From: Candidatus Altimarinota bacterium
Lineage (GTDB): Bacteria; Patescibacteriota; Gracilibacteria; BD1-5; UBA2023
NCBI GenBank assembly: GCA_028713325.1
Contig: JAQTON010000003.1
Location: forward strand, 105,368 to 169,367
DNA length: 64,000 nt
Reading direction: 5' to 3'
This document shows positions 9,310-26,449 of the stretch, piece after piece (position 1 is the stretch's first letter; the number at the start of each line of letters is the position of its first letter). Position numbers and translations under genes: made by a program. The notes under the pieces are model-generated. The model made no database searches. It had not been told where the DNA came from and saw nothing but the letters and a program-made list of their open reading frames with translations.

Positions 9310-10404
9310 TTATTTTATATTATAGCTCCCATCGATATTCATTTTCACGATTCCATGTACTTCCATTATAGAGAGTTTGAATGCAATGGTCGCAATGTCC
9401 ATACCGAGTCTGTTCTCAATGGATGATATATCAAGCGGTTCGGATTCTATGAGTCTGTAAATGGATTCCTCCAAGGGGTCATCAAATTTTCGGACATGTA
9501 TCAGCTCTTTGTTTTCTCTTTCGATGGTTATCGGTTCGTACTCGGAAAGAATATCCGTTGCACCAAGAATAAGTTTTGCTTGTCCATCCCGAATGAGCAT
9601 ATTGGTTCCGGTACTTGTCGCTTTAGTAACCTCTCCTGGGAGTGCAAAAACATCTCGTCCAAAATCGAGAGCGAGCCCTGCGGTGATGAGCGTTCCCGAT
9701 TTTTCTGCCGCTTCTGTGACGAGAGTTCCTTTGGACATCCCCGCAACTATTTCATTGCGGATAGGAAAGTTATAGGGTTCCGGTCCCATTCCAATCGGAA
9801 ACGGCGATACGAGTGCTCATCCCGAAGTGAGAATCTGGTTAAAAAATTCTTTATTTTCCTTTGGATAACACCGATCAATTCCAGTTCCAAAAACCGCCAA
9901 GGTATATCCTTTATTTTCCAGAGTGATTTTATGTGCAAGGGAATCCACTCCATAAGCACCTCCGGATACGATTCCATATCATCTCTGTATGAGATCGGGT
10001 ATGATATTTGAGAGAGTAATTCGTGAATAGGGAGTACTTTTTCGGGAACCGACTACAGAGATAAGATTCGTATGCAGGGGAAGTGTTCCCCGAACATAGA
10101 GGAAATAGGGACAAACGGGCGTTTGTCTCAAAAGTTCCGGATAGAGCGGATCTTTGAGAGTGATGATTTGCACATCCAATTTCTTTATAAGCTCAGAAAT
10201 TTTAGTTGTGTCGAATTCTTCTTTGGTCTTGAGTATTATCTGAATTTTCTCATCTTTGAATCCAAGCTTTTCAAGAATTTGAAAATCGAGCTTGTTGTAA
10301 AAATCCTCATAATTCTCCTCTTTCTCGAAGATACGAGAAAGGGCTCTTTGGGACAATCCAATGGAGTGAAGATAGACGAGAAAAAGGAGATTGGTTATGG
10401 TCAT
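9310..10404 (-). CDS. dprA: DNA processing protein DprA/Smf
   Basis: 364 residues; loads RecA on incoming single-stranded DNA during transformation. Rossmann-like core is visible: ISVVGSRKSTPYSR, GIVSGGAYGVDSLAH, TLAVFGTGIDRCYPKEN, VSPFPIGMGP, FPIRNEIVAGMS and TLITAGLALDFGRDVFALPG. A C-terminal winged-helix-like segment follows (~300-364). Standard code would break it at 9790 and 9979, where TGA encodes Gly. Starts two bases after the tilS stop, the last gene of a six-gene run. Its presence with a PilB-like ATPase and prepilins in this window is consistent with natural competence. Confidence 0.92.
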
Positions 10405-10406
10405 GG

Positions 10407-11345
10407 TTATGAGAGATGAGAATCAAAATATATCCGTCCATTTCTTTTTTCCAAATGGAGTTTCCCCAATTCCTTTTTCGTATAGTTTCCTTTGTTTCCG
10501 ATAAATCGGATGATTTCGGCGATACCTCTTTCGGAAAGTCCAATGGTTCCATTATTGGCTCGCTCATAGATATATCGAATCACTTCTCTCTGTAAAAAAG
10601 GAGAGAGAATCTGAAAATCTTCGACACTGAAAGAGGATTCTCATCTGAGAAAAACTTCTACCTGCTTGTTGATAAAATCAACAAGTTCCGTCATATATCT
10701 CATAAAAGATATCATATTCTTGCGATACTCTGGATTGATACGTTCAAACTCGTTGATGATGTTGAGTCGGAGGTGATTGCGAAGATACGTATCATCGGCA
10801 TTGGTTGAGTCGAGCCTATAGGGAACACTTTCTTTTTCTAGTTTCTTTAGAATTTCGGTTTTTGAAACATTGAGAAGCGGTCGAAGTATGTGTCAGTTTT
10901 GTTCCGGAACTCCCGTAAGTCCATGAATTTTACTTCCGCGAATGAGATGGAACATAAGGGTTTCTATGCTATCATCGAGATGATGGGCAGTAAGAATATA
11001 CCTTGCCTCATATTTTATCCGTGTCTGTTCGAGAAAATCGTATCGCTCGATGCGTGCCGTTTCCTCGATTCATTTTTTTGTCGTCTGAGCTATACTGGTT
11101 ATATTTTTTTTCGTACTCGTAAAAATAATATGATTTTCTTTGCAAAAATCCCGCAGAAACTCCTCGTCCCCCTCGCTTTCTGGTCATCGCAGGCAGTGGT
11201 TGAAATGAGCAACGATGAGGTGCTCATTCGGAAGGATTTTTATAATCTCTGAGAGGAGATACATACTATCCGGTCCTCAAGAACAGGCAATTATAAGAAT
11301 ATCACTGGAAGTCAATTGATATTTTTGAAAGAAATTTTTGAGCAT
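10407..11345 (-). CDS. tilS: tRNA(Ile)-lysidine synthetase
   Basis: 312 residues; converts the wobble C of the CAU anticodon of tRNA-Ile to lysidine. PP-loop ATPase motif ACSGGPDSMYL at residues 20-30 with Gly23 encoded by TGA, then VAHFNHCLRG and ES.GDEEFL, all signature elements. Several other TGA-Gly codons. The C-terminal part is shorter than in E. coli, as in many small-genome bacteria. It begins six bases after the RNHCP gene and ends two bases before dprA. Confidence 0.92.
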
Positions 11346-18772: not shown

Positions 18773-18799
18773 TTGCTTTCTCCGATTTTTCCCTATAAT
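18773..18799 (+). promoter_or_regulatory. Promoter of serS
   Basis: TTGCTT (18773-18778), 15 bp, TATAAT (18794-18799). Initiation near 18806 would place the inverted-repeat element 18825-18917 in the serS 5' leader. Confidence 0.6.
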
Positions 18800-18824: not shown

Positions 18825-18917
18825 GTAGATAGGATATTCATTTCTCATCCATATGAAGCCGATGTGTACTGAAGTACACCAAGGCCATATGAATTTCGAA
18901 ATGAATATCCTATCTAC
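18825..18917 (+). promoter_or_regulatory. Structured leader element upstream of serS (family 1, copy 1)
   Basis: A perfect 20-bp outer stem (18825-18844 with 18898-18917) encloses a nested structure: CATATG/CATATG (18850-18855/18886-18891), a two-A bulge, GCC/GGC (18858-18860/18883-18885), and a 6-bp hairpin GTGTAC-TGAA-GTACAC. It lies between the promoter and the start codon at 18948. The core TCATCCATATGAAGCCG...ACCAAGGCCATAT recurs upstream of hisS at 24977-25060 with a different outer stem. Cis-regulatory RNA is the preferred reading; a mobile palindrome is an alternative. Confidence 0.6.
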
Positions 18918-18947
18918 TTACATTTATTATTTTTTTGTTGTTTCCCT

Positions 18948-20246
18948 ATGATTGATATAAAAATCCTCCGTACCAATCCCGATCTTGTTCGAAAAGCCCT
19001 CCATGACAAGGTGACGAAAGTGGATCTCGACCGAGTTATCGAGCTCGATACGAAACGTATCCCCCTCAAACAACGTCTCGATGAGATCAGGTCCGAAAGA
19101 AATAAGCTCTCCGATGCGATGGGGAAAGGAAAACCGGAACCGGTTCTGATTGAGAAATCCAAGGCTCTCAAAGAACAACTTCAGGTTCTCGAAGTGGAAT
19201 TCGAAGCGATTGAAACAGAGTTTCTCGCCCTCTATAAAAAGATTCCAAACATTCCAACAGCCGACACTCCGGTGGGATTCACAGAAGACGACAACGTCAT
19301 CGTTCGACAATGGGGAACTCTTCCAACTTTTTCATTTCCGATAAAAACGCACGCAGAGATTGCGGAGGTTCGCGGATGGATCGACAAGGAACGTGCCGCG
19401 AATGTCGCGGGAGCGCGTTTTGCGTACCTCAAAGGAGAGCTTGTGCGTCTCCAGTTTGCACTCGTAAATTGGGTAATGGATTCGCTCAGTGACGAAAAAG
19501 TCCTCGCTGGTATCATAGCCGAACACGGACTCAAAGTTTCCGCAAAGCCATTTACCCCAGTACTTCCTCCATACATGATCAAGACCGCTCCGTATGATGC
19601 TATGGACCGACTCGAACCTCGGGAAGACCGATACAAGATCGAAGGACAGGATCTCTGGCTCCAGGGTTCTGCGGAGCACGTGCTCGGTTCCATGCACGCG
19701 AACGAGATTTTCGACGAGCGCGATATGCCTGTTCGGTACCTCGGGTATGCGACGAGTTTCCGCGGAGAGGCGGGAACCTACGGAAAAGATATGGAAGGAA
19801 TTATCCGAATGCACCAGTTCGACAAGATGGAGATGGAGAGCTTCTCGACCGCCGAGACTTCCCACGATGAACATCTTCTCTTCTCTGCCATCCAAGAGTA
19901 TCTCATGCAGCAGCTCGAGATCCCCTACCAGAAGCTCCAGAAGTGCACGTTTGATATCGGGAAACCGAATGCAAAAGGTTCCGACATCGAAGCATGGCTT
20001 CCGGGTCAGCAAAAGTATCGAGAGACTCACACGGCGGATTACATGACCGATTACCAGTCCCGCCGTCTTCAGACTCGCGTACGACGCTCCACCGGGGACG
20101 TAGAACTCATCCACACGAACGATGCTACCGCATTCGCCTGCGGACGAGCCCTTGTAGCGATTATGGAGAACTATCAAAACGAAGATTGTACCATTCGGGT
20201 TCCAAAAGTATTGCAGAACTATATGGGAGGAAAGAAAGTGTTATAA
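18948..20246 (+). CDS. serS: Seryl-tRNA synthetase
   Basis: 432 residues, class II synthetase. N-terminal coiled-coil arm (~30-100) that grips the long variable arm of tRNA-Ser, motif 2 region RYLGYATSFRGEAGTYGKD, and motif 3 AFACGRALVAIMENYQ. The HQFDKMEM and QLPFQ-like elements are in place. No UGA codon in 432 residues. Preceded by the family-1 structured leader and followed by a strong terminator. Confidence 0.95.
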   Translation: MIDIKILRTNPDLVRKALHDKVTKVDLDRVIELDTKRIPLKQRLDEIRSERNKLSDAMGKGKPEPVLIEKSKALKEQLQVLEVEFEAIETEFLALYKKIPNIPTADTPVGFTEDDNVIVRQWGTLPTFSFPIKTHAEIAEVRGWIDKERAANVAGARFAYLKGELVRLQFALVNWVMDSLSDEKVLAGIIAEHGLKVSAKPFTPVLPPYMIKTAPYDAMDRLEPREDRYKIEGQDLWLQGSAEHVLGSMHANEIFDERDMPVRYLGYATSFRGEAGTYGKDMEGIIRMHQFDKMEMESFSTAETSHDEHLLFSAIQEYLMQQLEIPYQKLQKCTFDIGKPNAKGSDIEAWLPGQQKYRETHTADYMTDYQSRRLQTRVRRSTGDVELIHTNDATAFACGRALVAIMENYQNEDCTIRVPKVLQNYMGGKKVL

Positions 20247-20265
20247 TTTCCGAAAATATCCTTAC

Positions 20266-20297
20266 AAAAATCCTCTCCAAATCGGAGAGGATTTTTA
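20266..20297. terminator. Bidirectional terminator after serS
   Basis: Thirteen-bp stem (20266-20278/20284-20296), loop AAATC, flanked by A and T runs; between convergent genes. Confidence 0.9.
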
Positions 20298-20300
20298 CTT

Positions 20301-20975
20301 TTAATACTGCTCAAAAAACACTTTTTCTTTCTCGATTCCGTTTGCTTCGAGTTTTTCTCTCGCATCTTTCACCATCGCTGGGCTTCCGCAGAGGTAGACT
20401 TCTCCGTAGGGAGCAATATTTTCTTTCGTGAGGAAATCCGTCACTCGTCCGCGGACAGTATTTTCTGAATCTTCTTGACTGAGGAATATTCGATACTCAA
20501 ACATCGGATATTCTTTCTTTATGCGATTGAGCTCGTCGATATAGAACATATCGGATGCGGTTCGCACTCCGAAGAGGAATAGAAGAGAGGTTTGTATACC
20601 CGAATCCATCATAGCTCGGATCTGGAAATAGAGCGGAGCGAATCCGGTTCCGGTTCCGACAAAGAGCTTCGGAGTTGTATTTGCTTTCAGGACAAAGTGC
20701 CCGAGTGGCACCATTCCGATAAGCTCCTCTCCTACTTCGAGAGAGCAGATCTCAGTACTTCCAGCACCACCCTCAATCTGTTTGATGATAAAGGTAAAAG
20801 TCTGACCATCGGCATATCCGATGGAGTAGGCTCGTCGGAGCTTGGACTTTGGGAGGAGAAATAGGACATATTGTCCTGGCTCTGTCTGAATAGACTCATG
20901 AATAGTAAAAATAAGCTCATACACGTCGTGTGTGAGCTTATTTTTCTGTATAAGTTTGAAAGGGGTCTGTTGCAT
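20301..20975 (-). CDS. Ferredoxin-NADP reductase-like flavoprotein
   Basis: 224 residues. FAD domain with the flavin motif RRAYSIG (residues ~47-53), EPGQYVLF and IEGGAGSTEI, followed by the NAD(P)-binding half with LFVGTGTGFAPLYFQIRAM, LFLFGVRTASDMFY and VYLCGSPAMVKD. This matches FNR-type reductases that pass electrons between NAD(P)H and a one-electron carrier. The partner is unknown. No UGA. Starts 12 bases after a small hypothetical gene with which it shares a promoter. Confidence 0.85.
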   Translation of the reverse strand: MQQTPFKLIQKNKLTHDVYELIFTIHESIQTEPGQYVLFLLPKSKLRRAYSIGYADGQTFTFIIKQIEGGAGSTEICSLEVGEELIGMVPLGHFVLKANTTPKLFVGTGTGFAPLYFQIRAMMDSGIQTSLLFLFGVRTASDMFYIDELNRIKKEYPMFEYRIFLSQEDSENTVRGRVTDFLTKENIAPYGEVYLCGSPAMVKDAREKLEANGIEKEKVFFEQY

Positions 20976-20987
20976 GAGAGTGAAAAA

Positions 20988-21293
20988 TTACGCTGCTTTT
21001 TGTTCCTGAAAATCGGCATCATTGGCAGCTTCTTGCTCTCGAAATTGCTTTTTGAGAGCGATAATCTGTGAGAAATACTCGGGTTTTGTTTGCTTTCAGA
21101 GAATGCAGGCGATAGTGGCGTTTGCTTCCCGTAAATAGTAGCGTATGGGATTTCTTTCATTGGCAGCGAAACGTTCGATAATTTCGGTTGCTCACAAATG
21201 AGCTTTCTCTACAATTGCTGCAATTGTAGGAGAAAGGGCTGTATCTTTCGATACAACATTGCTTATAGGAGGAAGTGATTTATTCTCTGGCAT
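20988..21293 (-). CDS. 101-residue hypothetical protein
   Basis: MPENKSLPPISNVVSKDTAL... mainly helical, with AANERNPIRYYLREANATIACIL and an Ala/Gln-rich C-terminus (QEAANDADFQEQKAA). Two TGA codons read as Gly. The tail is probably coiled-coil. Transcribed with the FNR-like gene from a promoter at the edge of recA. Function unknown. Confidence 0.6.
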
Positions 21294-21321
21294 ATTTTTC
21301 TATTTTAGAATAGTGAGAGAG

Positions 21322-21349
21322 ATTATACCACGAACGCCCTAAAAAGCAA
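21322..21349 (-). promoter_or_regulatory. Promoter of the hypothetical-FNR pair
   Basis: Minus strand TTGCTT (21344-21349), 16 bp, perfect TATAAT (21322-21327), immediately beyond the recA stop codon. Confidence 0.7.
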
Positions 21350-21350
21350 A

Positions 21351-22334
21351 TTATCCTCGAATTTTCTTTTCGATTTCGTCCGCGATTTTACCGTTCTCCT
21401 TGAGAAACTGTCGTGCATTTTCGCGCCCCTGACCGAGTTTTATGTCGCCATAAGTGTAGAATGCACCTGATTTCTTAATAATCCCTTTGTCCGATCCTAT
21501 GTCGACGATTTCTCCTTCCAGAGAAATTCCTTCATTGAAGAGAACGTCAATCTCCACCTCTTTGAACGGAGGGGCAATTTTGTTTTTTACCACTTTTACT
21601 TTTACTCTATTTCCCATGGTTTCTTTATCGTCCCCGGTTCCGCTTTCGAGTTTCTCTTTTCTGCGGATGTCGAGACGTTGTGAGGCATAGAATTTGAGAG
21701 CATTTCCTCCTGTTGTCGTCTCGGGGTTTCCGAACATCACTCCGATTTTCATACGAATCTGGTTAATGAAAATAACGGTACTGTTCGATTTGGAAATCAC
21801 TCCGGTGATCTTGCGAAGTGCCTGACTCATCAAACGAGCCTGAAGTCCCATAAAAGAGTCTCCCATATTTCCCTCAATCTCTGCCTTTGGAACGAGAGCT
21901 GCAACAGAATCGACCACTATCAAGTCGACGGCATTCGATCGAACGAGTGCATCGACAATCTCGAGAGCCTGTTCTCCATAGTCCGGCTGAGATATGATGA
22001 GCTCATCGATATTTACCCCGATTTTTTTCGCATACTCCGGATCAAGTGCGTGTTCCGCATCGATAAAGGCGGCAGTTCCACCGAGTTTCTGAACTTCGGC
22101 GATGGCGTGGAGGGCGAGAGTAGTTTTACCGGAGGATTCCGGACCATATATCTCGACGATACGTCCTTTCGGGTATCCTCCGCCAAGTGCCGCATCGAGA
22201 GCGATGGATCCGGACCCAATCATCTCTACCTTAATCGACTGATGGTCTCCGAGTTTCATAACGGAACCGGCTCCAAATTGTTTCTCGATCATCGCAAGTG
22301 CCGCAGTGAGTGCCTCTTTTTTATTATCCACCAT
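21351..22334 (-). CDS. recA: Recombinase RecA
   Basis: 327 residues. Walker [10 protein letters not shown] at 64-72, Walker [11 protein letters not shown], the MAW-equivalent [15 protein letters not shown]1 loop [22 protein letters not shown] and L2 region [21 protein letters not shown] are all intact. It forms filaments on single-stranded DNA for strand exchange and stimulates self-cleavage of LexA-type repressors, one of which lies at 42.4 kb. No UGA codons. Own promoter at 22366-22393. Confidence 0.97.
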
Positions 22335-22365
22335 ATAATTGTTTATTAAGAAATATATGAAAGAG

Positions 22366-22393
22366 AGTATATGAAATTTTTTTTCTATTGCAA
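22366..22393 (-). promoter_or_regulatory. Promoter of recA
   Basis: Minus strand TTGCAA (22388-22393), 16 bp, TATACT (22366-22371), 31 bases before the start. No obvious palindromic SOS box was recognised. Confidence 0.65.
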
Positions 22394-22493
22394 ATCTTTT
22401 TTCATACTTTTACAGAATTTAGTATTTTTGTAAAAATAACAAAACTTACTCGGTAGATTCGATTATACAACCAATTATTAAAATTTCATTAAA

Positions 22494-22910
22494 TTACCAG
22501 AGTATTTTACAGATAAAAAAAACGGCCAATAAATTGAACCGTTTTTGTTTTCCACCTCCTTTTCAGATGGAAATATAGTGTCGTTCCTTTTTGAGTGGAA
22601 GACGTAGCTGATAGAGCATAGTGGCAGCTTCCTGATCCAATGGAATCAGTGTACCATCAGCAATTATGCAACGAGTTCCCATATCGCCGATAGACTTTTT
22701 CATGAGAACCTCGCAACATCCGTCGTGATATCCGCGTGGCGTTTTATTGATTTGTGCCACAGCTTTTGCGATACCACCGAGCGAACATTTCTGAATATCG
22801 AATTTCGGGAGAATGATCGCTTCAATTCCGCGAGCCCCCTCCTTCAGTCCAAACCGGATTTGCCCTTTTATGAGAACAACATCACTTGGTACTGCTGAAT
22901 TTCCCTTCAT
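22494..22910 (-). CDS. Hypothetical protein (116 or 138 residues depending on a UGA)
   Basis: Start ATG 22910 follows AGGGGG. Reads MKGNSAVPSDVVLIKGQIRF..., a beta-rich domain with GGIAKAVAQINKTPRGYHDG and three cysteines around GCCEVL. If UGA 22563-22565 is Gly the frame runs on to TAA 22494 and through a terminator hairpin at 22515-22546; if that UGA stops translation the protein is 116 residues. AAAGGAGGTG follows the UGA directly. No family recognised. Confidence 0.55.
22515..22546 (-). terminator. Intrinsic terminator of the 22.9 kb minus gene
   Basis: On the minus strand AAAACGG (22539-22545) pairs with CCGTTTT (22519-22525) and is followed by a T run. It overlaps the possible readthrough extension of the gene. 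Confidence 0.7.
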
Positions 22911-22930
22911 AGATCCCCCTTGATATTTGT

Positions 22931-22949
22931 TTGTCGAAAAGATCGACAA
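22931..22949. promoter_or_regulatory. Inverted repeat in the divergent promoter region (operator candidate)
   Basis: TTGTCGA-AAAGA-TCGACAA, a perfect 7-bp inverted repeat, 21 bases upstream of the minus-strand start at 22910. A minus-strand TTGACA (22975-22980), 16 bp and TACAAA lie next to it, so the repeat would overlap the transcription start. Confidence 0.45.
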
Positions 22950-23023
22950 GATATTTGTATGCAAAATAATATATTTGTCAAATCTTTTACGCAATAATTT
23001 TATTGGCTATAATCAAAATCCTT

Positions 23024-23051
23024 TTGCTTCCCGGAGAGTTTTTCATATAAT
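23024..23051 (+). promoter_or_regulatory. Promoter of proS
   Basis: TTGCTT (23024-23029), 16 bp, TATAAT (23046-23051), 30 bases before ATG. Confidence 0.7.
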
Positions 23052-23081
23052 CCCTGTACTATATCCAACTACATACATTCC

Positions 23082-24296
23082 ATGCTCCAACTTTCCCGCT
23101 ATCCGTTCCATACGCTCAAAACCGTTCCGCAGACTTCCGATAACCGTTCCACAGGGCTCTTGCTTCAGGCAGGGTTTGTCCGTCAGGAAATGGCAGGAGC
23201 GTATATATACCTCCATCTCGGGCTTCGAGTCCTCGAAAATATCAAGAAGATTGTGCGAGAAGAACTCGACGCTATCGGATGTTCGGAGATTCTCATGACA
23301 TCCTTCGGAACTCGGGAACACTGGGAAAAAACGGGACGATGGGACACGATGGACAATCTCTTTAAGGTAGAAGGGGCTTCCGGAAAATACTATGCTCTGA
23401 ATCCGACTCATGAAGAGATCGTCACTCCTCTTATGCATGAGTTTATTCAGTCATATAAAGATCTCGATAATTGTGCCGTATATCAATTTCAGACCAAGTT
23501 TCGAAATGAAGCTCGTGCGAAGTCCGGAATCCTTCGAGGACGGGAATTCCTTATGAAGGATCTGTATTCATTCCATCGAAACAACGACGAACTCGATGTA
23601 TTTTTCGAAGAAGTCCGCAAAGCCTATGTTCGAATATATGAACGCCTCGGACTCGGGGAATCGACGCGGTATGTATTCGCTTCCGGAGGAGCGTTTTCCA
23701 AATACAGCTACGAGTTTCAAACGGATCTCGGAATCGGAGAAGACGACGTCTATGTCTGTTCCAAGTGCGGACAAGCTCACAACGAGGAAATTATCGATCC
23801 TGCCGGGTTTGTCTGCGTGGAATGTGCTTCCAAAGAACATACGATCGTACAAGCCTCCGAAGTGGGAAATATCTTCAAGCTCGGGACCCGTTTTTCCAAT
23901 GACTTCGGACTCGGGTATACCGATGCGGAAGGGAAGAAACAAGAGGTGGTTATGGGGTGCTACGGAATCGGAGTGAGTCGACTTATGGGAGTTATCGCCG
24001 AGAAATTCATGGATGAAAAAGGGCTTATCTGGCCCGAGAATGTCGCACCGTTCAGTCATTATATGATCGTTATCGGAGACCATCTCGAGGAAGCGAAGAA
24101 GCTTGCAGAGAAGCTCGAATCCACCGGAGCGACCGTGCTCATCGATGACCGAAATACCGGATTCGGAGCCAAAGCCGGAGATGCCGACCTTCTCGGAATC
24201 CCTCATCGTATCGTACTTTCCGATAAAACGCTCGCACAAGGGGGGTATGAACTGAAAGGAAGAAGGGAGAGCGAGAGTAAGATAGTTACTTTATAG
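23082..24296 (+). CDS. proS: Prolyl-tRNA synthetase, short form without the INS editing domain
   Basis: 404 residues. Class II motifs: GAYIYLHLGLRVLENI (motif 1), TKFRNEARAKSGILRGREFLMKD (motif 2) and GCYGIGVSRLMGVIAE (motif 3), plus the anticodon-binding domain at the C-terminus. Bacterial ProRS is normally near 570 residues with an INS domain between motifs 2 and 3 that removes mischarged Ala; here motif 2 leads to motif 3 over about 150 residues, so INS is absent. A C-x2-C...C-x2-C pair (VCSKCGQ...CVECAS) sits in that gap. No UGA codons. Confidence 0.92.
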   Translation: MLQLSRYPFHTLKTVPQTSDNRSTGLLLQAGFVRQEMAGAYIYLHLGLRVLENIKKIVREELDAIGCSEILMTSFGTREHWEKTGRWDTMDNLFKVEGASGKYYALNPTHEEIVTPLMHEFIQSYKDLDNCAVYQFQTKFRNEARAKSGILRGREFLMKDLYSFHRNNDELDVFFEEVRKAYVRIYERLGLGESTRYVFASGGAFSKYSYEFQTDLGIGEDDVYVCSKCGQAHNEEIIDPAGFVCVECASKEHTIVQASEVGNIFKLGTRFSNDFGLGYTDAEGKKQEVVMGCYGIGVSRLMGVIAEKFMDEKGLIWPENVAPFSHYMIVIGDHLEEAKKLAEKLESTGATVLIDDRNTGFGAKAGDADLLGIPHRIVLSDKTLAQGGYELKGRRESESKIVTL

Positions 24297-24317
24297 GTGC
24301 ATATTTCTTTTTAATTT

Positions 24318-24626
24318 ATGTTAAAAGCACTCGATATTGAAACATCTCATGATAAAGAAAAAGTAAGATTTGTCTTGAGACAGATAAAAACATTTATAAA
24401 TCCCAATGATTGTGGATGTATGGATTTTTCATTAACTGATGAGGTTTACGACGAAATATTATCCACATCCAATGATTGAAAATGAATTTCATTACAAGAC
24501 AATAAAGCATTACAAGATGAATTGACCGAGATATCTTTGTGAGTAATAACTGATTTTCAGCGTATATTAAATTGAATAACTCAATGAACCATTGAATTTG
24601 AAAATGTTACCAAAAAAGTATTTTAA
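24318..24626 (+). CDS. 102-residue hypothetical protein
   Basis: Open only with TGA as Gly (five such codons). MLKALDIETSHDKEKVRFVL..., acidic and helical, no motif recognised. Begins 21 bases after proS. Its UGA density contrasts with the preceding synthetase, which has none. Confidence 0.5.
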
Positions 24627-24699
24627 TCCAAAATCTCCTTGCTTTTTTCTCATTTTTCCATATCTTTATTTTGTCTATTCTTTTTTACCCATAAACAGT

Positions 24700-24894
24700 A
24701 TGGCAGAACGCAAAAAATTTGCGAGTGCGGTGAACTTCTATGTCACCGACGCTCAGAAAAAGAAAATTGAAGTTATTCTCGAACAAAAAGGACAGAGTCT
24801 CACGGATTTTCTCCGAGGACACATCCAAACTACTGTTGAAAAGTACGAGGATAAAAATGGACCGATCAATATTTATCAGACTTATATCGTATAA
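24700..24894 (+). CDS. Small ribbon-helix-helix-like protein
   Basis: 64 residues: MAERKKFASAVNFYVTDAQKK... A short beta-strand (SAVNFYVT) is followed by two helices (DAQKKKIEVILEQKG, SLTDFLRGHIQTTVEKY), the arrangement of RHH/CopG-type DNA-binding dimers or relaxosome accessory proteins. Start at ATG 24700; the longer upstream frame has an AT-rich untypical N-terminus. A terminator follows. Confidence 0.5.
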   Translation: MAERKKFASAVNFYVTDAQKKKIEVILEQKGQSLTDFLRGHIQTTVEKYEDKNGPINIYQTYIV

Positions 24895-24924
24895 AGTTTT
24901 GCTTTTCGCCATAACATTTGATAG

Positions 24925-24948
24925 TATCCCTTTACCGGGATATTTTTC
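24925..24948 (+). terminator. Intrinsic terminator
   Basis: TATCCC (24925-24930) pairs with GGGATA (24937-24942), then a T run; ends the RHH-like gene before the hisS leader. Confidence 0.7.
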
Positions 24949-24976
24949 ACCTTTTAAAGAGAAATCCATCTTCATT

Positions 24977-25060
24977 GATATATCTCATTTTTCGTCCATA
25001 TGAAGCCGTGGCTATCCTTGAATATACCAAGGCCATATCGACTTCAAAATGAGATATATC
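24977..25060 (+). promoter_or_regulatory. Structured leader element upstream of hisS (family 1, copy 2)
   Basis: A perfect 15-bp outer stem (24977-24991/25046-25060), different in sequence from the serS copy, encloses the same core: TCGTCCATATGAAGCCG, a variable hairpin (TGG-C-TAT/ATA-CCA) and ACCAAGGCCATAT. The core helices CATAT/ATATG and GCC/GGC with the two-A bulge are retained. It ends 45 bases before the hisS start, against 30 in the serS copy. Confidence 0.6.
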
Positions 25061-25105: not shown

Positions 25106-26449
25106 ATGACTCCTCCTCTCCGCGTTCGCGGTATGCAAGATATCTTCGGTGAATACCAGAGATATTTTACGTTCCTCAAAAAAGTAGCCAGACACGAGTT
25201 CCGTAAAAACGGATTTACGCGTATCTCGACGCCGATTGTCGAACACAAAGAACTTATCGTTCGTTCGGCAGGAGAATCCTCCGATATCGTTTCCAAGGAA
25301 ATGTATGCCTTTCTCGATCGAAAAGACCGAGAACTTATCCTTAAGCCAGAATCCACAGCAGGGGTTATGCGTGCCTACCTCGAACATATGCTTGAGGAAC
25401 CACAACCGGTGTATCTCTACTATATCGAGCCCCATTTTCGATATGATCGTCCTCAGAAGGGTCGATATCGTCAACATCACCAGGTAGGTGCGGAGATTAT
25501 CGGGGAAGTGGATCCGGTTATCGATGCGAAAGCGATTCAAATTGGATGCTCTATCCTCGACGGTATCGGACTCAAGGGACAATACCGTCTCAAGCTCAAT
25601 ACTCTCGCGACCCCAAAAGAGCGAGAGAAATACATTCAGGAACTTGCCGGATTCTTTGAGAATAAGAAACATCTCCTCGATGAAACGGATCTCTATCGCT
25701 TGACTACCAACCCTCTCAGACTTCTCGATACGAAGAACGAGGATGTTCGGGAGCTTCTCAAAGTAGCACCGAAGATTACCGATTTTCTCAAGAAGGATTC
25801 CAAGGAATACTACGAGAAAGTAAAAACCTATCTCGATATACTCGGAGTGGCATATGAAGAAGATCCGCTTCTCGTACGGGGATTCGATTACTACTGTCAC
25901 ACCGTTTGGGAATGGGTGGACGGAAGCGATCGTACTCAAAATGCTTTCGGGGGAGGAGGTCGATATGACGGACTCTCTAAATCCATCGGTTACAAGGAAG
26001 CGGTTCCCGGAGTCGGATTTGGCATGGGGGCAGAGCGTCTCATAGAAACCATCATGGACAATGGGATAAAGCTCAAGAATAAAGATAAAACGCATGTGTA
26101 CTTTATCCAGCTCGGAGAAGAGGCGACGAAACTCGTTCTCCCTCTCGATATGGAAGCTCGTACCCGTGGACTCAATTCTCTTATCTCTCTCGGTACTCCG
26201 TCTCTGAAGGTTCAGATGAAGAAGGCGAATCGTCTCGGTGCTCAGTATGTCGCAATCATCGGTATCATGGAAGCCAAGAAGAAGGTTTGTCAGCTCAAAG
26301 ATATGGTGAATGGAACCCAGGAAGAAGTTTCGCTTGAAAAACTCCTCGATCATCTTATGACGAAAATCGATGTAAAATCTCTTGATTTCTACTCTCCACT
26401 CAAGGATTTCATCATCGAAGAAAAAAAGGAAATCATCCCTCAGGAATAA
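25106..26449 (+). CDS. hisS: Histidyl-tRNA synthetase
   Basis: 447 residues, class II. N-terminal LRVRGMQDIFGE, motif 1 FTRISTPIVEH, motif 2 YYIEPHFRYDRPQKGRYRQHHQVG, the histidine-specific RGFDYYCHTVWE, FGGGGRYDGL and motif 3 GVGFGMGAERLIETI, then an anticodon-binding domain. A tail of ~30 residues (KIDVKSLDFYSPLKDFIIEE) follows the usual end. No UGA codons. Preceded by the family-1 leader element. Confidence 0.95.
   Translation: MTPPLRVRGMQDIFGEYQRYFTFLKKVARHEFRKNGFTRISTPIVEHKELIVRSAGESSDIVSKEMYAFLDRKDRELILKPESTAGVMRAYLEHMLEEPQPVYLYYIEPHFRYDRPQKGRYRQHHQVGAEIIGEVDPVIDAKAIQIGCSILDGIGLKGQYRLKLNTLATPKEREKYIQELAGFFENKKHLLDETDLYRLTTNPLRLLDTKNEDVRELLKVAPKITDFLKKDSKEYYEKVKTYLDILGVAYEEDPLLVRGFDYYCHTVWEWVDGSDRTQNAFGGGGRYDGLSKSIGYKEAVPGVGFGMGAERLIETIMDNGIKLKNKDKTHVYFIQLGEEATKLVLPLDMEARTRGLNSLISLGTPSLKVQMKKANRLGAQYVAIIGIMEAKKKVCQLKDMVNGTQEEVSLEKLLDHLMTKIDVKSLDFYSPLKDFIIEEKKEIIPQE

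Follow-up and report, generated by a model that had tools for sequence, protein, structure and literature searches.

The stretch of DNA analysed here (64,000 nucleotides of contig JAQTON010000003.1, Candidatus Altimarinota bacterium; hereafter the window) carries two long hairpins, one before serS and one before hisS, which a preliminary description had taken for a structured RNA leader common to aminoacyl-tRNA synthetase genes. We conclude that both hairpins are copies of a genus-specific family of dispersed intergenic palindromic repeats, which is likely to have spread as non-autonomous mobile DNA and not as a synthetase leader RNA. From this point on, the seven genomes of the genus are referred to as G000 (that of the window) to G006, and individual loci by L numbers.

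Two hairpins upstream of serS and hisS

The features in question all lie on the forward strand; R2 is a covariance model described in the next section.

18773..18799, + strand: promoter-like site TTGCTT-15-TATAAT (predicted), upstream of the serS copy, its position shared by the six genomes of the genus that have serS
18825..18917, + strand: palindromic repeat element, serS copy, with a perfect 20-bp outer stem and a core (R2 match 18835-18907, 87 bits)
18849..18890, + strand: conserved core of the serS copy, CCATATGAAGCCG, apical segment, CAAGGCCATAT (pattern search and alignments)
18948..20246, + strand: serS, seryl-tRNA synthetase (NCBIfam TIGR00414, table 25 reading)
24899..24927, + strand: promoter-like site TTGCTT-17-TAGTAT (predicted), upstream of the hisS copy (promoter scoring)
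24977..25060, + strand: palindromic repeat element, hisS copy, with a perfect 15-bp outer stem and a core (R2 match 24982-25055, 79.7 bits)
24996..25038, + strand: conserved core of the hisS copy (core pattern search)
25106..26449, + strand: hisS, histidyl-tRNA synthetase (NCBIfam TIGR00442)

Gene translations use table 25 (TGA = Gly), an assumption in line with Gracilibacteria. As first described, the arms are fully paired, over 20 bp in the serS copy (18825-18844 with 18898-18917) and over 15 bp in the hisS copy (24977-24991 with 25046-25060). On either strand, both elements fold much more stably than dinucleotide shuffles, with z-scores of -11.5 (serS) and -6.6 (hisS) for the plus strand and -10.8 and -7.7, respectively, for the minus strand. 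The likeness of the cores before two synthetase genes also holds: CCATATGAAGCCG...CAAGGCCATAT is exact in both copies and has four occurrences in the 1.05-Mb genome, whereas the reversed pattern has none. The outer stems, which had been called unrelated, are in many copies variants of one arm (about GYRGATAGGATTTTCATTTC, by eye), with hisS among the more diverged. These arms differ in sequence and length from copy to copy while their pairing is kept. The inner hairpin had been said to change in sequence and still pair; across the family it does so only weakly, with 52.6% of cells paired.

No Rfam family accounts for either element. At the gathering score, Rfam finds RNase P and two tRNAs in the whole window and nothing else, so that neither element matches a T-box or any other Rfam family. 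A scan by E-value returned 11 weak and unrelated matches for the serS element, none a T-box and all far under the gathering scores, and none for the hisS element, in keeping with the reported lack of a T-box signature.

Copy number and distribution

A 12-base word, searched with at most one mismatch, lies at 16 places in the window's genome, ten of which are the element, some of them changed yet paired. A covariance model built from these ten (R1) finds 12 copies in that genome. The second model, R2, was built from 51 copies and returns 12 in G000, 13 in G001, 7 in G003, 16 in G004, 7 in G006, one in G002 and none in G005, for a total of 56 copies in six of the seven genomes; the seventh copy of G003 and the sole copy of G002 are weak matches (E about 1e-3). 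The preliminary description had suggested a model search, in which many matches upstream of synthetases would count in its favor. The copies found are mostly beside other genes, and none outside the genus is convincing: with R1, the 92 genomes searched from the family, order and class yielded a single weak match (E 0.002, in G068), and with R2, 378 other genomes of the phylum yielded none, both searches having been run with stricter filters under which weak matches are lost. A scan of named genome contigs for the exact core returned six stretches from three Candidatus Gracilibacteria assemblies, a list from which records near the window's genome may have been omitted. As for carriage by viruses, none of 80 examined stretches, out of at least 120 with a loose core pattern, matched R2, which shows nothing for viruses generally. 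A literature search found no paper joining 'Gracilibacteria' with 'inverted repeat', and no title or abstract opening among those seen reports the family.

The element, roughly 75-110 bp in size, represents, in our classification, a new family of stem-loop repeats dispersed between genes (SLS/ERIC-like). Homologous copies occupy unrelated intergenic sites, with 12-16 copies in each of three genomes and 7 in each of two, and they have in common a stem-loop with covariation.

Covariation and mispairing

The structural covariation reported from the first two copies is real. In a structure-fitted alignment, 20 of 25 pairs covary, with 111 covarying cells against 37.6 in shuffles and also far beyond slid controls; in an unfitted alignment of ten copies, 9 of 25 pairs do so, with 12 cells against 3.6 in shuffles. 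The compensatory changes had been read as the mark of selection on RNA structure, and it is this step that the mispairs weaken. Where a structure is kept in one RNA strand, G.U is expected to be tolerated and A.C is not. A count over 21 pairs in 52 copies gave 40 G.T and 33 A.C, with one pair rich in C.A excluded (41 G.T and 52 A.C when it is included); sense and antisense copies did not differ in this (Fisher p 1.0). By comparison, 17 tRNAs from the window and loci L073-L145 gave 39 G.T and 1 A.C (Fisher p 3.6e-7), although this control is a favored one, as ARAGORN takes good tRNAs only, and the cells counted are not independent of one another. Outside the core, the arms gave 47 G.T and 52 A.C, a count that includes some unpaired flank, and the five serS copies alone gave 5 and 3, too few to judge.

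The tolerance of G.U over A.C expected of a leader RNA on its transcribed strand is thus not seen. Because the two kinds of mispair are about equally common, pairing is not bound to a single RNA strand, and the family looks like an ERIC-like DNA palindrome whose arm pairing is kept at the level of DNA. Strong compensatory covariation in two leaders is, then, no proof of RNA function. Counting G.T against A.C by strand can separate palindromic DNA repeats from structured RNA, and should be useful in automated searches for RNA motifs.

Genomic context and orientation

Context was recorded for 52 of the 54 R1 copies in the genus (two G004 copies were left out), with genes called by a home-made hexamer scorer for which some start codons are doubtful and a few calls overlap the element. 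Between co-directional genes, 17 copies are in sense and 15 in antisense; 15 more lie between divergent genes, one between convergent genes, and four have a missing neighbor. Of 100 flanking proteins, 60 were searched with Pfam, and these neighbors are mostly unrelated to one another, including ftsX, ftsW/rodA, murI, Wzy_C, CorA, thioredoxin, folD and T2SSF, among others. Synthetase genes recur downstream in sense, namely serS, hisS and metS (G004, L113), but the element is also found on the 3' side of leuS and of a tRNA-synt_1b gene, and argS is about 785 bases off. A consistent sense position 5' of a gene, as a leader RNA would have, is therefore seen at serS but not across the family, given that 15 of 52 copies are antisense to both neighbors. 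The preliminary description had itself held that copies scattered at random sites with target-site duplications would speak against a leader. The scatter, in near-even orientation, is largely what was found; target-site duplications could not be demonstrated.

Near-even orientation and stable folding of both strands would also suit bidirectional terminators or stabilizers of mRNA ends, kept between genes since the hairpin works on either strand, and in 11 of the 15 antisense cases the upstream stop codon is followed by the core at a distance of about 20-40 nt. However, of the 48 copies assigned, only one is in a convergent position, the place expected of terminators, a T-run directly follows the stem in few copies (by eye), and a terminator needs no conserved core. 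We therefore hold this explanation to be very unlikely. The deficit of convergent sites has a p value of 0.005 when judged by gap length; set against gaps of 40 bases or more it is 0.001, and against those of 80 or 120 bases or more, 0.07. The effect is weak, and orthologous copies are not independent.

Presence and absence at orthologous sites

All seven genomes have hisS (93-96% identical to that of the window in the other six), yet only the window's genome has the element before it. Other sites are likewise occupied in one genome and empty in another, as judged by matching flanks. For instance, L086 (G001) has no counterpart in G000, L119 (G004) none in G001, L096 (G001) none in G004, L120 (G004) none in G000, and L110 (G006) none in G003; for L086 and L096 the absence rests on flank matches, the base-level alignment inside the gap being poor. 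The site that L086 fills in G001 lies empty in the window itself, at about 10382-10421, where the neighboring genes, going by orthology, encode a PP-loop ATPase and DprA. That copies were inserted into hairpins already present, which could have explained the outer stems, is not supported, as the empty L120, L110 and L086 sites have no obvious palindrome by eye; the empty site of L119 (in L096) has a short one of about 6 bp, also by eye.

In two other genomes, the hisS 5' region holds other inserts. By eye, L131 (G001) has an inverted-repeat insert of roughly 130-150 bases, and L127 (G004) has one bounded by GAAATGAGAAA/TTTCTCATTTC together with a small hairpin; the site seems to collect palindromes. 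Between serS and hisS in the window, proS (23082-24296) is short at 404 aa, and the proline--tRNA ligase model matches it in two stretches. Against the usual length of this enzyme, it looks as if the inserted editing domain were absent.

Apparent exchange of cores and inversion of an element

The inner cores appear to have been exchanged between loci. At serS, the G000 core shows 59% identity to its best orthologue, against 88% to the copy beside murI, while its outer arms and flanks are those found in G001. The L114 core is 70% identical to its orthologue and 92% to L074, and the L075 core 67% to its orthologue and 94% to a copy elsewhere. At such loci the outer arms and flanks remain orthologous. 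Among 22 copies with a known orthologue, the nearest relative is a copy in the same genome for four and another locus of another genome for seven; the cores are short, and single cases of exchange are uncertain. Whole elements may also be turned around: at the hflX site, the element of G000 (L078) is reversed relative to L112 and L093 of G001/G004, with gene order unchanged. A repeat family with inversion and apparent core exchange is thereby described in the small genomes of Gracilibacteria.

Persistence, promoter-like sites and a possible leader role

A number of observations weigh against a purely mobile repeat. One concerns serS: a SerS match was obtained in every genome but G005, and in all six the element precedes the gene in sense, following the predicted promoter-like site. 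The G002 copy is weak (R1 25.4 bits; R2 E 7e-4), and no other was found in that genome (78% complete). The ABC transporter/AhpC site is occupied in four genomes; like that at serS, this is a persistence above that of usual junk. Other sites in common are those of the tRNA-synt_1b gene (three genomes), hflX (three) and some found in two. Half of the copies with a known orthologue (11 of 22) are still closest to it. Several translation genes stand among the sense neighbors, with copies before fmt (L110), earP (L100) and, in G001 and G004, hflX in addition to serS, hisS and metS, the names being partly inferred from Pfam and the grouping made post hoc. A strong promoter-like site lies just upstream in 13 of 33 sense rows and 3 of 30 antisense rows (7 and 2 loci), strong meaning a score of at least 9, a threshold picked after the scores were known. 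The inner core is better conserved than the ends, unlike a terminal repeat bound by a transposase. At the L106/L099 site, filled in G003 and G006, the empty genome (G004, L118:6614-6632) has a short arm-like scar, so that a missing copy can mean deletion and not only lack of gain. Finally, no target-site duplication was established, since flanks are mostly 70-88% identical between species, too diverged for exact junctions to be read.

The alternative closest to the first proposal is a cis-regulatory RNA leader through which a shared ligand or protein would control synthetase genes or, more broadly, translation genes; its hairpin, just past the transcription start, would answer a signal such as an amino acid or uncharged tRNA. 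The serS copies, the sense copies before other translation genes and the covariation all agree with it. The antisense copies, those 3' of leuS and the tRNA-synt_1b gene, the mostly unrelated neighbors, the single hisS copy and the lack of strand preference in wobble pairs do not, and we consider a leader common to synthetases unlikely. Of the idea of a cis-regulatory element, what survives is that both copies in the window are downstream of promoter-like sites and that serS is uniformly in sense; elsewhere, orientation is near even. Combining the two readings, the serS hairpin could have originated in the genus ancestor as a regulator and then seeded the repeat family, with promoter-downstream sense copies (serS, hisS, metS, ftsX, thioredoxin, earP, hflX) answering one trans-acting factor that recognizes the core, a scheme to which we give only a small chance.

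The serS copy is likely older than the split between the six species that carry it. An older origin is not indicated: in sister genera, whose SerS is 75-83% identical to that of the genus, no element was seen by eye or folding in the 200 nt before serS at ten loci (L270-L279, eight from sister genera and two more distant, drawn from 18 SerS loci outside the genus in the family), nor did R1 match in the genomes concerned. Given the promoter bias, the persistence at serS and the translation-gene neighbors, some copies may work as leader RNAs, and the serS copy may have been co-opted for use. As a persistent leader copy, it offers a test case for co-option.

L139 (G004:C1:209620-210888) and L140 (G002:C89:3259-4215) encode another SerS-like protein, with 45-46% identity to the main SerS; in the G004 copy (L139), 15 TGA codons are read through.

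Proposed mechanism and candidate mobilizers

As members of a dispersed, probably mobile repeat family, copies would arrive by insertion and vanish by deletion, with cores swapped through recombination or gene conversion. Arm pairing might be kept in DNA by way of a cruciform or hairpin intermediate, or by template switching. A copy landing downstream of a promoter would enter the transcript as a strong hairpin and might affect the stability or translation of the mRNA, an effect reported for ERIC; the serS copy would be the best candidate for co-option.

A further difficulty for this account is that none of three enzyme families searched as mobilizers (Y1_Tnp, RVT_1 and DDE_3) tracks the copies. 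Y1_Tnp matches occur in two of the seven genomes (G003 and G001) and RVT_1 in G000, G003 and G005 but not in G001, G004 or G006, a distribution that does not follow the copies and sets aside a reverse-transcribed element. DDE_3 occurs in none of the seven, which does the same for a MITE (miniature inverted-repeat transposable element) driven by an IS630-type transposase. A REP/REPIN-type hairpin (repetitive extragenic palindrome) moved by a RAYT (Y1) transposase would fit the short palindrome, the conserved unpaired bases and the many intergenic copies in both orientations, but is extremely unlikely, as G000, G004 and G006 (93-96% complete) lack Y1_Tnp despite their 12, 16 and 7 copies; the element is accordingly not classed as REP/RAYT. 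Fourteen Y1 transposase matches were seen in G003 (L058, L060-L072); 12 lie at the ends of contigs, which points to a multicopy IS200-like element interrupting the assembly.

Relationship to known systems

In position, the serS and hisS copies resemble T-box leaders of synthetase genes, but neither the window nor the element scans hold a T-box match, and the neighbors of the family extend beyond amino-acid genes. A repeat can lie inside a leader without being one: according to PMC3049150, one pneumococcal BOX element sits between two T-box motifs of a trp leader. BOX, however, is modular (A, B, C), with large forms that contain reading frames, whereas the element here is a single stem-loop.

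Correia/NEMIS and RUP, the MITEs of Neisseria and pneumococcus, are described in PMC2229807 and PMC3049150 as small non-autonomous palindromes of about 107 bp with occupied and empty sites, and an IS630-type DDE_3 transposase is the proposed mover of RUP. The present family has the occupied and empty orthologous sites of a MITE but no DDE_3 and no TA ends in common that were noticed, and its ends are not conserved, the outer arms varying while they pair. Because conserved terminal inverted repeats are lacking and target duplication is not resolved, it is not classed as a MITE proper.

A close parallel is ERIC/IRU of enterobacteria (127 bp), likened here by description and not by sequence. According to PMC2229807 and PMC2267715, it too is an intergenic palindrome of about 100 bp, forming one long stem-loop, present in many copies and at times part of a transcript. 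Terminal repeats, TA ends and target-site duplications are listed for ERIC in PMC2229807, whereas the family described here has variable ends around a conserved inner core and fewer copies per genome, and was found in a single genus of Gracilibacteria.

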